Positions 43,435 to 49,419 of a stretch of 51,949 nt of DNA are shown one piece after another; positions within the stretch are counted from its first letter, which is position 1, and every line of letters begins with the position of its first letter. A program made the translations under genes and the position numbers. The stretch lies in assembly GCF_900155545.1 (NCBI RefSeq), contig NZ_LT732526.1, positions 1,209,648 to 1,261,596 on the forward strand, given 5' to 3'. The notes below the pieces were generated by a model. It ran no database searches and was not told where the DNA came from. It saw only the letters and a program-made list of their open reading frames with translations. Source of the stretch: Clostridium sp. Marseille-P2415 (lineage in GTDB: Bacteria > Bacillota > Clostridia > Lachnospirales > Lachnospiraceae).

Positions 43435-44859
43435 TTAGAGTTCATTTCCATTGGTTTCGATCACATGCTGATACCACAGGAAACTGTCTTTTTTAATACG
43501 CCGCAAATCCTTTAAATCATGATCATCCCGATTGATATAAACAAACCCGTAACGTTTCCGGAAACCTTCATGGGAACTGAGCAGATCCATAAAAGACCAA
43601 GGAGAATATCCCAGCATCCGGACTCCGTCTCCGATGGCCTGGCTGCAGGCCAGAATGTGCGCTCTTAAGTAGTCAATCCGGTAATCATCGTGGACCTTCC
43701 CGTCTTCTGTCAGGGTATCGGCAGTGCCCAGTCCATTTTCCGTTACGATCAGGGGAAGATGGTATTTCTGATAATAACTGTTTAATACGGTCCGAAGGCC
43801 CAGGGGATCGATCTGGGCTCCATATTCACTGGAAGCCAGATGCCCGTTCTTTATATGGTGGAAATAGCCGTATTGGTCAAAATCCACCTCATTGATCGGG
43901 AAAGCCCTCTCCCCTGCGGGATGCTCCTTATCTGCCGGAAGATACCTGACACAAAGGGTCCGGTAATAATTCAGTGCGATAAAATCCATCCTGGCATCCT
44001 TTAAAATTTCCTCATCTCCCGGTTCCATAGCCGGTACAATATTTCTCTCCTTTAAATAACCCATGTAATAACCGGGGTATCGGCCGTAAAAATGCATATC
44101 CAGGCAATAATCCGTCTTGAACCAGTCGTTCATCCGGGCTGCCCATACGTCTTCCGGCCTGTTGCTTTCCGGATAGGTGCAGGTGGAGGATACGGCCGGG
44201 CCTATCTTACCGTCCGGTATGATGGAATGGCAGGCTTTTACCGCCAGGGCATGTGCGAGGAACATGTGGTAGTCCATCTGGGCCCTCTGCCGGTCAGCTT
44301 CCCATGCATCGTCCGCGGTGATGTTCACCCTCTCATTTACCCGTACCATAAGATTCTGCTCATTGTGAACCTGCCAGTAGGTGACTCTGTCTCCAAAGGT
44401 CTCGAAACAGATTCTGGCATAGCGTTCAAATGCTTTTACGCATTCCCTGGATTCCCAGCCATTATATTTTTCCACAAGGGCATAGGGAAGGTCAAAGTGA
44501 TACAGTGTGATAAACGGCTGGATCCCCTGCTTAAGCAGACAGTCAATGATTCGGTCATAGAAATCAATGCCAGCCTGATTGACTGTTCCGTCCCCGTCAG
44601 GTATGATTCTGGCCCAGGAGATGGAAAACCGATAGATCTGCAGTCCCAGCTCTTTCATCAACCGGATATCTTCTTCCCAATGATGATAGAAGTCACTGGC
44701 GACCTTACTGTCAGCCTGCTTGTCGGAGCGCTTAAAGGAATTTACATCGGCAACGGTCATGCCCTTTCCGCCTTCAGCCCAGCCGCCTTCGATCTGAAAC
44801 GCTGAGGAAGACGCTCCCCAAAGAAAATTCTTTGGAAAATCTGCTTTTATTCTTTCCAT
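43435..44859 (-). CDS. GH1 6-phospho-beta-glucosidase
   Basis: A cytoplasmic GH1 enzyme of 474 residues that hydrolyses phosphorylated beta-glucosides delivered by the PTS. The N-terminal PKNFLWGASSSAFQIEGGW is the GH1 signature. The acid/base Glu lies in V-H-N-E-Q-N and the nucleophile in L-I-V-T-E-N-G-L-G. AAAGGA lies 9 bases upstream of the ATG. It follows bglP by 13 bases. Pairing with a PTS EII supports the phospho-sugar specificity over plain beta-glucosidase. Confidence 0.93.
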   Translation of the reverse strand: MERIKADFPKNFLWGASSSAFQIEGGWAEGGKGMTVADVNSFKRSDKQADSKVASDFYHHWEEDIRLMKELGLQIYRFSISWARIIPDGDGTVNQAGIDFYDRIIDCLLKQGIQPFITLYHFDLPYALVEKYNGWESRECVKAFERYARICFETFGDRVTYWQVHNEQNLMVRVNERVNITADDAWEADRQRAQMDYHMFLAHALAVKACHSIIPDGKIGPAVSSTCTYPESNRPEDVWAARMNDWFKTDYCLDMHFYGRYPGYYMGYLKERNIVPAMEPGDEEILKDARMDFIALNYYRTLCVRYLPADKEHPAGERAFPINEVDFDQYGYFHHIKNGHLASSEYGAQIDPLGLRTVLNSYYQKYHLPLIVTENGLGTADTLTEDGKVHDDYRIDYLRAHILACSQAIGDGVRMLGYSPWSFMDLLSSHEGFRKRYGFVYINRDDHDLKDLRRIKKDSFLWYQHVIETNGNEL

Positions 44860-44872
44860 ATCTATTTATCCT

Positions 44873-46789
44873 TTACTGATTTTTTTTAATCGCTATCACC
44901 GGTTTTTCAAGAGAAGCTCCGGTTCCTGTTATACCGGTAACCTGCTTGAAGGCAGCGGTATTGCTGATGATAATCGGAATGATGGTATCGTAACCTTCCT
45001 TTTTCAGGGCAGCTAAATCGAAGGAAAGGATTTTGGTTCCCTTCTTGATATGTGCTCCTTCTTCTACATACTTTTTAAAATGCTTTCCTTCCAGCTGAAC
45101 CGTATCAATGCCCACATGAATAATCATCTCAACTCCGTTATCCAGCATCAGTCCCAATGCATGGAGAGTCGGGTAAATCAGGGTAACCGTACAGTCCTCC
45201 GGGGCAATAACTTCACCCTTTTCCGGTATAATTGCGACTCCATTTCCCAGCGCCATGGAAGAAAAAACCTCATCATTTACCGATGTCATGGGAACTGCGG
45301 AACCTTGGACCGGTGAGCCTATTAATACATTTGCTTCAGAAATTATATCCGGATCATCCGGTGCTTGGGCAGATGCATCAGCCATAGTCTGCACAGATGT
45401 TTCGGCAGATGCAGAAGATCTTGCATTCTTCGCAGCAATATCATCAAAGCCAAAAAGGTAGGTCAATACCATTGCGCCAAAGAAAGATACGGCAACGCCG
45501 ATCAGGTAATAAACAAATGGTTTCATTCCAAAGGCCGCATAGGTTGCAAAGGTAAGGATACCGTTATTGGCAAAGGAATCACCATACACGCCGCCAATTC
45601 CCATGATCGCACCACCGACCGCTCCACAGATGATCGCATAGATCATAGGCTTTTTTAACCGAAGGTTACAGCCGTAAATGGCCGGCTCCGTGATACCGCA
45701 GACAGAAGCGGAAATCGCCGCAGAAGCTGCAACTGTCTTTAAATCCTTACTTTTCGTTTTCAGCATAACACCAAGGGCTGCACCGCCCTGGGAGAAATTT
45801 GCCGCACCTGCAAATGCCAGCAGGTTTTGATGGCCGAACTGCGCTACGTCATTGATCCCGATGGGAAGCAGGGCCCTATGTGCTCCGAAGATTACAAACA
45901 CACACCACATACCGCCTATAAAGGCACCGCAGACTGCAGGACTTAAATTCATCAGTCCGGTGTAAATAAAGTTAATGGCATCACCAATGTAGATGCCGAT
46001 GGGACCAAATACCATAAAGGTTGCTGGTATCATGACCAGCAGGGAGATGCCGGGAACCAGAATAATCTTCAGCACCTCAGGTATTATTTTTTCTAAAAAT
46101 TTCTGTACATATGCGAGAATAAATACCCCGATAATGATGGGGATAACAGAAGACGTATAGCTTGCTTTGGTAATGGAAATACCGAACATGCTCACAGCCT
46201 CTTTCCCTGTCATCAGGGTAACAACAGCAGGATAACACATGGTTCCGCCAAGAGCCATGGCAATAAATTCATTTGCCTTAAATACCTTGGCACTTGTATA
46301 GGCAAGAATGACGGGCATGAAATAAAACAGAGCATCCGTGGCAGCCATGATAAGAATGTAAGTCTGGTTGACCGTGATATCCATTCCATGGTTGGAGGCC
46401 GTGATCCTGGCTATGGTTAAAAATCCTTTTAAAAGTCCGGAGGCAGCAATTGCCGGAACCATGGGAGTAAAGATGGCGGAAACAGCAATTAAGATCCGGT
46501 TCCAGACAGAAACCTTCTCTTCGCTGCTGTCTGCACTTTCCTCCAGCGACAGCATAGGCATAATTACATCATAAACTTTCGTGACCTTTGTTCCCAGCAC
46601 AACCTGGAACTGCCCTCCGCTTTCTACTACGGAAATAACACCTTCCAGGTGTTCAATGGTTTCTCTATTTGCCTTTTTCGAATCTTTTAATTGAAATCTT
46701 AATCTGGTAAAACAATGGGTCAGTCCCATTACGTTTTCCGAACCGCCGACGTTTGTTATGATGTCTTTGGCTATTTGATTATAATTCAT
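44873..46789 (-). CDS. bglP: Beta-glucoside-specific PTS transporter EIIBCA
   Basis: A fused phosphotransferase permease of 638 residues. The EIIB domain has the phospho-Cys in L-T-H-C-F-T-R-L-R-F near residue 26. The EIIC domain has about ten helices and the motif C-G-I-T-E-P-A-I-Y-G. The EIIA domain at the C-terminus has the phospho-His in M-I-I-H-V-G-I-D-T-V. The start at 46789 (MNYNQIAKDI) follows GAAAGGGG by 8 bases; an 18-residue in-frame upstream extension lies in the leader. Substrates are likely aryl-beta-glucosides or cellobiose. Confidence 0.95.
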   Translation of the reverse strand: MNYNQIAKDIITNVGGSENVMGLTHCFTRLRFQLKDSKKANRETIEHLEGVISVVESGGQFQVVLGTKVTKVYDVIMPMLSLEESADSSEEKVSVWNRILIAVSAIFTPMVPAIAASGLLKGFLTIARITASNHGMDITVNQTYILIMAATDALFYFMPVILAYTSAKVFKANEFIAMALGGTMCYPAVVTLMTGKEAVSMFGISITKASYTSSVIPIIIGVFILAYVQKFLEKIIPEVLKIILVPGISLLVMIPATFMVFGPIGIYIGDAINFIYTGLMNLSPAVCGAFIGGMWCVFVIFGAHRALLPIGINDVAQFGHQNLLAFAGAANFSQGGAALGVMLKTKSKDLKTVAASAAISASVCGITEPAIYGCNLRLKKPMIYAIICGAVGGAIMGIGGVYGDSFANNGILTFATYAAFGMKPFVYYLIGVAVSFFGAMVLTYLFGFDDIAAKNARSSASAETSVQTMADASAQAPDDPDIISEANVLIGSPVQGSAVPMTSVNDEVFSSMALGNGVAIIPEKGEVIAPEDCTVTLIYPTLHALGLMLDNGVEMIIHVGIDTVQLEGKHFKKYVEEGAHIKKGTKILSFDLAALKKEGYDTIIPIIISNTAAFKQVTGITGTGASLEKPVIAIKKNQ

Positions 46790-46841
46790 TATCTTAACCC
46801 CTTTCAAGTGTTTTCTTATCTTATCATTTGGCCTGAATGAC

Positions 46842-46923
46842 AAAATAAAAAGACCCGATTAAACTATCCGAATCATAAGACTATAGAAAACCATAAGTCT
46901 TATAACCATAGATTAATCCGATC
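46842..46923 (-). terminator. Long leader terminator of bglP operon
   Basis: On the minus strand GATCGGATTAATCTATGG and ATAAGACTTA pair with TAGTCTTAT and GATAGTTTAATCGGGTC in a long, interrupted hairpin, followed by TTTTTATTTT. Its upstream arm overlaps the 3' end of the RAT site, so binding of LicT to the RAT would prevent its formation. Confidence 0.85.
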
Positions 46924-49017: not shown

Positions 49018-49050
49018 GATTGTAAAATCCTTTCTCTGTTAATTCCAAAT

Positions 49051-49095
49051 AAAAAAGCAGAAAGCAACGATACTTAAACGTATCTGCCTTCTGCT
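49051..49095 (-). terminator. Leader terminator immediately upstream of the ABC-F gene
   Basis: AGCAGAA (49056-49062) pairs with TTCTGCT (49089-49095), and GATAC with GTATC inside, across a TTAAAC loop. The minus strand then has six T. It ends about 35 bases before the ABC-F start, so read-through is needed for expression. Confidence 0.85.
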
Positions 49096-49131
49096 GAGAT
49101 GAGAGATCCCGGGATCCCTGTACATCCACAA

Positions 49132-49163
49132 AAGGCTACGGACAAAACATTGCCCATAGCCTT
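49132..49163 (-). other. Leader hairpin 2 of ABC-F attenuator
   Basis: AAGGCTACGG and CCATAGCCTT (49132-49163) form a stem with one mismatch around ACAAAACATTGC. The minus strand continues into TTTTGTGG, too weak for a confident terminator. Confidence 0.55.
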
Positions 49164-49194
49164 CCGCACATAAAAAATCATACGAAAAAGAAGC

Positions 49195-49234
49195 ATCAGA
49201 ACAGGCGAGCCCCTATGGGCCGTTCCGGTCTGAT
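49195..49234 (-). other. Leader hairpin 3 of ABC-F attenuator
   Basis: ATCAGA at 49195-49200 and TCTGAT at 49229-49234 close an extended, partly paired hairpin that includes the inner GCCCC/GGGC pairs. It lies just downstream of the leader-peptide stop. Confidence 0.5.
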
Positions 49235-49245
49235 TGCTCTCTTTT

Positions 49246-49318
49246 CCGATGAAATCCTAACGCGTATATGATCCGCTATACTCTGCACAATGTTTCATCG
49301 GTCCGGATTGTACAGAGT
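49246..49318 (-). other. Mutually exclusive stems inside and after the leader peptide gene
   Basis: Stem A pairs ACTCTGCACAAT (49280-49291) with ATTGTACAGAGT (49307-49318), 12 bp with one G-U. Stem B pairs CCGATGAAA (49246-49254) with TTTCATCGG (49293-49301), and the latter sits in the loop of stem A. A ribosome on the leader peptide would open stem A and could allow stem B to form. The switch itself is inference; the pairings are visible. Confidence 0.6.
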
Positions 49319-49358
49319 TAAGTTTTCTTTTCAATTGATCTGACAAATAAATGCCCAT
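49257..49358 (-). CDS. 33-residue leader peptide of ABC-F gene
   Basis: A short gene starting ATG at 49358 and ending TAG at 49257-49259. It is preceded by GAGGAG with 7-base spacing, a strong ribosome binding site. The peptide begins MGIYLSDQLKRKLNSV and ends in YSGSYTR. It is about 30 bases downstream of the promoter -10 and far upstream of the ABC-F gene. In other bacteria similar leaders let stalled ribosomes reset an attenuator; here that is inferred. It has no recognisable domain. Confidence 0.7.
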   Translation of the reverse strand: MGIYLSDQLKRKLNSVQSGPMKHCAEYSGSYTR

Positions 49359-49390
49359 ATCGATTCTCCTCTTAACTATAATTCACGGTT

Positions 49391-49419
49391 ATGGTAGCAT
49401 ACCTGTCTGACTTTGTCAA
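49391..49419 (-). promoter_or_regulatory. Promoter of ABC-F gene with long leader
   Basis: A perfect TTGACA (49414-49419) and TACCAT (49391-49396) on the minus strand have a 17-base spacer and TGC extension. The leader runs about 365 bases before the ABC-F ATG. The stretch 49420-49517 holds only an 18-base AGCACTT/AAGTGCT palindrome at 49468-49485. Confidence 0.75.

Follow-up and report, generated by a model that had tools for sequence, protein, structure and literature searches.

The window analysed here, a stretch of 51,949 nucleotides from Clostridium sp. Marseille-P2415 (Lachnospiraceae), carries on its minus strand a gene for an ABC-F ATPase, which is preceded by a promoter, a short upstream open reading frame (uORF) and a series of predicted hairpins (Table 1). 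The encoded protein shows two ABC_tran stretches and an ABC_tran_Xtn linker (residues 226-304), which identifies it as an ABC-F ATPase, and its best-scoring relatives of solved structure are PoxtA and YbiT. The best NCBIfam model, NF000355 (ribosomal-protection-like ABC-F), is matched with 369.3 bits and thus below its cut-off of 380, so that we infer, rather than read from the model, a resistance role for this gene. Its upstream neighbours in the window (43435-46843) resemble, judged by eye from the list of open reading frames, a family-1 glycosidase and a beta-glucoside-type PTS transporter.

Table 1. Features of the leader and of the gene behind it (positions are those of the window).
Feature	Sequence or detail	Position	Strand	Basis
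Promoter	-35 TTGACA, 17-nt spacer with TG before -10 TACCAT	49391..49419	-	10/12 matches
Shine-Dalgarno of uORF	AGAGGAG	49366..49372	-	
uORF (leader peptide)	ATG start, 33 codons, MGIYLSDQLKRKLNSVQSGPMKHCAEYSGSYTR	49257..49358	-	recurrent start, pN/pS, frame integrity
Putative stall window	codons 12-14, K-L-N; consensus [KR]-[LIM]-[NSC]	49317..49325	-	profile and footprint arithmetic
Segment 1 (uup hairpin 5' arm)	CTCTGTACAAT, codons S15-V16-Q17	49307..49317	-	
RF03060 'uup RNA' match	full length, 1-48	49280..49327	-	59.4 bits
Segment 2 (hub)	CCGATGAAACATTGT; complementary to segment 1, segment 3 and T2 loop	49287..49301	-	
uup hairpin 3' arm	ATTGTGCAGAG, overlapping segment 2	49281..49291	-	
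Segment 3	TTTCATCGG, just past the uORF stop; partner segment 2 or T1 3' arm	49246..49254	-	
T1	hairpin of segment 3 and segment 4, TTTTTT end; first terminator-like site	49172..49251	-	fold and segment 3:segment 4 pairing
T2	GGCTATGGGCAATGTTTTGTCCGTAGCC + TTTTG; best-conserved terminator-like hairpin	49127..49161	-	
Anti-segment-2 stretch within T2	GCAATGTTTTGTC; 13 nt complementary to GATGAAACATTGT with G-U	49141..49153	-	
T2 3' arm and tail	GCCTTTTG, complementary to T3 5' arm	49129..49136	-	
T3	strong terminator-like hairpin, TTTTTT, 5' of ABC-F Shine-Dalgarno	49051..49094	-	fold and crude search of relatives
T3 5' arm	CAGAAGGC	49086-49093	-	
ABC-F Shine-Dalgarno	GAGAAAGGA, outside T3	49028..49036	-	
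ABC-F ATPase gene	511 aa	47482..49017	-	

An earlier note on this DNA had described a strong promoter, a well-initiated leader gene of 33 residues and two mutually exclusive stems overlapping that gene, all of which are borne out at the positions given in Table 1. Three promoter-like sites occur on the two strands of the 601-base region (1.4 ± 1.1 expected), and a site with at least 10 of 12 matches is found within 100 nt 5' of the uORF in 56 of 79 dereplicated loci, as opposed to 1.8% of base-shuffled controls. The leader is predicted to fold with -130.7 kcal/mol, compared to -91.0 ± 5.4 kcal/mol for 100 dinucleotide shuffles, none of which folds as stably (z = -7.4). Over the uORF, the uup hairpin (49307-49317 with 49281-49291) competes with a pairing between the hairpin loop (49293-49301) and segment 3 (49246-49254). 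This 9-nt match is unremarkable in the window alone, since 4 of 100 shuffles reach it; what is striking is its recurrence across loci. The note had further described a clear intrinsic terminator directly before the ABC-F gene. T3 is indeed located there, yet it is the last of three terminator-like hairpins in series. A pattern scan for terminators listed none of T1-T3 on the minus strand, probably because of bulges, long stems and the narrow U-tract rule of the scan, and the three calls are based on the predicted fold and on recurrence in relatives. The intrinsic terminators of an attenuator are represented by predicted, recurrent hairpins with U tracts. T2 also holds an ATG (ATGGGCAATGTTTTG); in many relatives the equivalent ATG opens a frame MDNVLS..., which in some of them runs into the main gene.

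Going beyond the earlier note, we found that the stem in the uORF is a member of the Rfam family RF03060 ('uup RNA'), which it matches with 59.4 bits over model positions 1-48 (gathering score 36.8), and that the same leader also precedes MATE and MFS genes. The uup motif was reportedly first described by Weinberg et al. in 2017, in a paper that may already mention a uORF. Excerpts of a 2024 review list it under 'RNA motifs similar to riboswitches' and state that uup RNAs commonly occur with ATPases whose function is unknown, that they are simpler in structure than most riboswitches and that further evidence for a function as riboswitch is lacking; in C. difficile, a uup RNA precedes a Uup-type gene (PMC11477304). 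The word 'uup' is absent from the main text of PMC8632094, and the best matches of a literature search on leader peptides and MATE genes contained no such case. The element described here agrees with RF03060 in its full-length match above the gathering score and in its position before ABC-F genes. Whereas the Rfam model consists of the 48-nt hairpin only, the element seen here also includes segment 3, T1, T2 and frequently T3, together with a uORF start about 14 codons 5' of the stem, and it is found before MATE and MFS genes as well. New here is the proposal that the uup RNA is a portable leader-peptide sensor.

RF03060 was detected in 24 of 99 relatives, in 19 of 396 genomes sampled from the family and in 4 of 398 genomes of a phylum sample, the window genome being counted each time; 22 of the 24 and 17 of the 19 exceed the cut-off. 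Within the genus, 22 of 25 genomes carry the motif, and it is exactly these 22 that encode an ABC-F ortholog with 60% identity or more; the remaining three have only an ABC-F paralog of 42-43% identity. The window genome carries this paralog, too, and matches the motif just once, before the window gene. The paralog in question (G000:C8:1009460-1010983) is a second ABC-F, 43% identical to the window gene and without uup motif, and similar ones are present in most genomes of the genus. Overall, carriers belong to the Lachnospiraceae, Oscillospiraceae, Peptostreptococcaceae, Peptoniphilaceae, Paenibacillaceae, Bacillaceae and Thermoactinomycetaceae and to Enterococcus, and tblastn searches of plasmids with two leader peptides and of phages with one gave no match at E<=10.

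The comparative analyses use a sample of loci, obtained in part by a DNA pattern scan of named genomes that returned at least 119 stretches; several genomes are present in both collections. From a starting set of 165 loci, one that repeats the window (L001) and three without the motif core (L024, L025, L026) were set aside. At least 161 loci contain the core and 153 a uORF in the frame of the SVQ codons of segment 1. The other eight of the 161 have no usable combination of segment 1 and start: L040 runs into a contig end, L153 has no start, and L049, L052, L059, L086, L103 and L111 have no segment 1. Several of these eight resemble chance matches, L049 perhaps being an exception. It stems from the gammaproteobacterium Izhakiella australiensis (L049:1-6506) and shows a uup-like hairpin, CTCTGACAA ... 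CGATGAAGCGTTGTTCAGAG, followed 48 nt on by TTCATCGC; the gene behind it looks by eye like a SAM-dependent methyltransferase, neither pump nor ABC-F, and the locus, lacking a standard segment 1, stands outside all counts. Sufficient sequence was available for 149 of the 153 loci, of which dereplication kept 79; leaving out L149 gave the 78 loci of the pairing tests, and excluding L055, L085, L096, L102, L136 and L157 for length or poor fit gave the 72 rows of the alignment. L085, with a short uORF and a stop within the loop, is a doubtful member. The sameness of segment 2 across loci is partly by construction, because the search pattern and the core expression fix most of its bases; the selection of loci was independent of the uORF, segment 3, T1, T2 and T3.

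To begin with the uORF, its start lies 14 codons before the serine of SVQ in 106 of the 153 loci and 12-16 codons before it in 150, the start codon being ATG in 149; the choice of starts relied on Shine-Dalgarno and start codon and slightly favoured this distance. For codons 2-14, i.e. the part 5' of the hairpin, 45 disjoint pairs of near relatives with 230 substitutions yield a pN/pS of 0.31. The nonsynonymous fraction is 0.571, compared to 0.744 ± 0.024 in 500 random relocations, none of which gave a value as low. Likewise, none of 104 unique sequences has an in-frame stop before the stem, as opposed to 99 and 87 of the 104 in the other two frames. With its Shine-Dalgarno sequence, recurrent start, low pN/pS and intact frame, the uORF thus has, at the level of sequence, the properties of a translated reading frame.

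Codons 12-14 rank with the most conserved codons in the 5' half of the uORF. In 85 unique windows, the profile before SVQ is [KR] at position -4 (60/85), [KR] at -3 (76/85), [LIM] at -2 (63/85) and [NSC] at -1 (68/85), and there is no single universal arrest motif across them. Macrolide-arrest leader peptides of the +x+ type, e.g. those of Mef(E) and Erm(K), have [KR]-x-[KR] at the stall site. The uORF of the window contains K-R-K, and [KR]-x-[KR] occurs at positions -7 to -1 in just 48 of the 85 windows, which makes the leader a candidate macrolide sensor at most. In the loop, the selected property appears to be a different one. Eight of the 153 loci, five of them from named Paenibacillus, have the loop shifted out of the SVQ frame with its bases kept, including two with a stop inside the loop, and the other loci read M-K-[HR]-C there. 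The eight frame-shifted loops indicate that the 3' half of the uORF is conserved as RNA and the 5' half as peptide, so that the conserved bases of the uup motif would be divided into a peptide on the 5' side and an RNA hub on the 3' side. M-K-[HR]-C was considered as stall peptide and rejected, because the frame is lost in these eight loci with the RNA kept and because a ribosome stopped there would cover segment 2.

To evaluate the competing pairings, the pairing energies of segments from the same locus were compared with those of segments swapped between loci (78 loci, 2000 permutations). All five alternative pairings fit better within their own locus than in any permutation: z amounts to -7.9 for segment 1 with the 3' arm, -5.0 for segment 2 with segment 3, -7.1 for segment 2 with T2, -12.0 for segment 3 with segment 4 and -7.4 for the T2 3' arm with the T3 region. 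Four control pairings are not outstanding (z of +0.1, +2.1, -1.4 and +0.8). The core of segment 3 lies 30-70 nt, mostly 42-50 nt, 3' of the loop in 76 of the 79 dereplicated loci. A crude search, which picked some hairpins wrongly and missed some evident ones, gave T3-type hairpins in 53 of 78 loci; with trimmed T3 arms from these 53 loci, the T2:T3 pairing reaches -10.5 kcal/mol for own and -9.7 kcal/mol for swapped partners, and 0 of 2000 permutations attain the own value.

The alignment points in the same direction. RNAalifold recovers the uup hairpin and T2, with compensatory changes in 13 of 23 pairs, and in the 72-row alignment the two helices are paired in 96.3% of cells, with double changes in 13 of 22 pairs and 113 double-change cells versus 37.4 in shuffles. 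For segment 2 with T2, 97.5% of the cells from 72 sequences are paired and 20 double-change cells compare with 6.7 in shuffles; the commonest double change is A-U to G-C (14 rows), in which GAAAC becomes GAAGC. Cells and score lie above the shuffles here, in contrast to the number of covarying pairs (2; 478/500 shuffles). A 2x2 tally of GAA[AG]C against T2 (A-T 39, G-C 11, A-C 7, G-T 5, 9 unread) had used a crude expression and is superseded by the counts from alignment columns. The pairing of segment 2 with segment 3 is nearly invariant and 91.5% paired, with 7 double-change cells versus 2.2 in shuffles; neither its covarying pairs (218/500 shuffles as high) nor its score (42/500) lies convincingly above the shuffles. 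Relatedness of the sequences inflates all such covariation counts, for which the control pairings are the better safeguard. Taken together, predicted mutually exclusive hairpins link the uORF to the terminator-like sites, as in the class of attenuators.

The genes behind the leader are of few kinds. Within 1.1 kb 3' of the 153 leaders, we found 122 ABC-F genes, 16 MATE genes, 5 Mef-like MFS genes, 9 contig ends and one insertion. Accordingly, 143 of the 144 leaders with readable downstream sequence are followed by a ribosome-protection or efflux gene, the 144th being the insertion. For L048 and L066, the MATE assignment is backed by the general MATE model, which both proteins pass. For the MFS protein of L092, the best named models are Mef(B), with 193.5 bits of 800, and Mef(A), with 180.5 of 675; both cut-offs are missed, and the protein is Mef-like, not Mef.

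In line with the anatomy of the leader, the selection on its reading frame, the spacing between start and stem, the co-fitting helices and the resistance-type genes downstream, we consider the leader to be a ribosome-stall-operated, trp-like transcription attenuator with the uup RNA motif as its switch, a reading to which we assign a probability of about 75%. Ribosome-mediated attenuation had been proposed in the earlier note, which had named missing conservation of the peptide or the stems in relatives as a finding that would speak against it; both are conserved, and the proposal is strengthened. What we infer for the course of events is the following. At rest, the uORF would be translated freely or not at all, segment 1 would pair with segment 2 in the uup hairpin, T1, T2 and T3 would form in turn, and RNA polymerase would stop before the ABC-F gene. 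Upon induction, a ribosome-targeting drug would arrest the ribosome with the P site near codons 12-14, where it would mask segment 1 and spare segment 2. The freed segment 2 would take segment 3 first, thereby breaking the base of T1, and would then pair with the loop and 5' arm of T2, whose displaced 3' arm could in turn pair with the 5' arm of T3. Provided that these alternative pairings form in time, polymerase would read through and the resistance gene would be expressed.

The position of the presumed stall follows from footprint arithmetic. For a P-site ribosome, a toeprint at +16 is quoted in the vmlR study (as excerpted from PMC9226507), which puts the edge of the footprint about 15 nt past the first P-site base. 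Counted from the uORF start, segment 1 occupies nucleotides 42-52, and segment 2 can pair from nucleotide 58 onwards. With the P site at codons 12-14, the ribosome would hence hide the greater part of segment 1 while segment 2 stays open, whereas at codon 11 it would cover under half of segment 1 and at codon 15 it would reach segment 2. When the RNA up to uORF nucleotide 51 was removed from the fold to mimic the masking, complete T1, T2 and T3 were still predicted at equilibrium. Here, the pairing of segments 2 and 3 wins only in a transcript that ends at segment 3, and that of segment 2 with T2 only in one that ends at the T2 loop; the latter pairing also forms when a transcript of this length is left unmasked. 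Since the equilibrium fold restores the terminators, the switch would have to be kinetic.

Part of these data could also be accounted for by a riboswitch-like RNA, in which the hairpin would stay folded, its loop would form a pseudoknot with segment 3 and kiss the T2 loop, and a ligand or ion would stabilise one of the states, translation of the uORF being incidental. Within segment 2, the double changes against T2 fall on positions (column 31 paired with 243, column 33 with 241) in or at the edge of the two loops, where kissing explains them as well as strand exchange does. Moreover, the loop bases are nearly invariant, partly through the choice of the pattern, and the review cited above groups the motif with riboswitch-like RNAs (PMC11477304). 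Such an RNA, however, assigns no role to the pN/pS of 0.31, the frame integrity, the Shine-Dalgarno sequence and the near-fixed spacing of 14 codons, and the genes behind it encode ribosome protection and efflux instead of belonging to one metabolic pathway; we therefore regard it as quite unlikely.

The same attenuator might also respond to general translation stress rather than to a drug, i.e. to low levels of charged Lys, Arg or Gln tRNA, or to a hard-to-translate KRKL stretch relieved by the ABC-F protein. ABC-F proteins can act on stalled ribosomes, which would suit such a circuit, and the conserved stretch has many Lys and Arg residues, encoded by several codons. The presence of this leader before MATE and Mef-like MFS pumps, however, fits drug export and not tRNA charging, and the residues before SVQ vary (Lys, Arg and others), so that no single amino acid is counted, unlike in trp-type leaders; stress sensing thus appears unlikely. 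Very improbable, finally, is that the structures act mainly on translation by hiding the ABC-F Shine-Dalgarno in the manner of erm leaders. That sequence lies outside T3 and is only weakly paired in the predicted fold, and all three hairpins run into a U-rich stretch, even though cplR, the closest experimentally studied clostridial case, combines both modes according to excerpts of PMC10201436.

The ribosome-operated transcription attenuator proposed here shares features with several known leaders, judged from passages of the cited sources. The vmlR leader of B. subtilis likewise has a uORF inside the first hairpin, which serves as anti-antiterminator and is succeeded by an antiterminator and a terminator, and controls an ABC-F gene by transcription attenuation (PMC9226507). 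Its uORF, however, has three codons (MIN) and is followed by one intrinsic terminator, compared to about 30 codons, a putative stall window in the middle of the uORF and up to three terminator-like hairpins here. In the cplR leader of C. difficile and Clostridium, a uORF also controls premature termination at the start of a clostridial ABC-F gene, but it reads MR[I/M], and the terminator stem hides the Shine-Dalgarno (PMC10201436). The mef(E)/mel and msrD leaders have in common with the present one the leader peptides, there with macrolide-dependent relief of termination, and an MFS pump and an ABC-F as output; their peptides, MTASMRLR and MYLIFM, have 6-8 residues and lie in one operon (PMC4335068, PMC10314930), whereas the present leaders, all of one family, precede ABC-F, MFS or MATE genes at separate loci. 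The bmrB leader of the BmrC/BmrD pump of B. subtilis resembles it in its long leader-peptide gene (162-nt span), the antibiotic-responsive attenuation before an efflux pump and the three alternative structures; its terminator lies inside bmrB, and the likeness is one of architecture (PMC4191407). The present leader is set apart by the long uORF, the tandem hairpins with shared complementarity and the three gene families served.

A more far-reaching version of this proposal holds that the freed 15-nt segment 2 sets off a relay by which up to three terminators in tandem are opened, in a portable Firmicutes antibiotic sensor that was placed repeatedly before ABC-F, MATE and MFS genes. We put it forward tentatively, at somewhat below even odds. 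If true, segment 2 would disrupt T1 and T2, the T2 arm thus set free would disrupt T3, and such a relay would represent a novel type of attenuator. The proposal provides a testable function for an RNA family hitherto without one, and it would tie three kinds of resistance gene to one sensor across many Firmicutes. Should the leader be drug-responsive, any unstudied gene located behind it would become a likely candidate for inducible resistance.

How leader and gene came together can be traced to some extent. On a tree of the 78 leaders, the gene label, known for 72 of them, changes at least seven times. The bootstrap of this tree is not fully settled and many forks are open; the best-supported mixed pair unites L106 (ABC-F) and L118 (MFS) with 100/97. 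From these repeated changes, it seems that the leader was passed around as a module or that another gene took the place behind it. Individual loci show further rearrangements. In L017, from the same genus as the window, a gene resembling by eye an IS200-type transposase is situated between leader and ABC-F, the match to which begins 1085 nt 3' of the loop. At a locus of Lacrimispora xylanisolvens (L010/L067), the ABC-F frame is broken after 138 codons and the match resumes 709 nt 3' of the loop; L077 and L096 look similar. In Paenibacillus assamensis (L061:6620 onwards), the leader is followed by an ABC-F remnant, of which residues 1-66 are matched, and then by a Mef-like MFS gene, perhaps a step in swapping one output for another.
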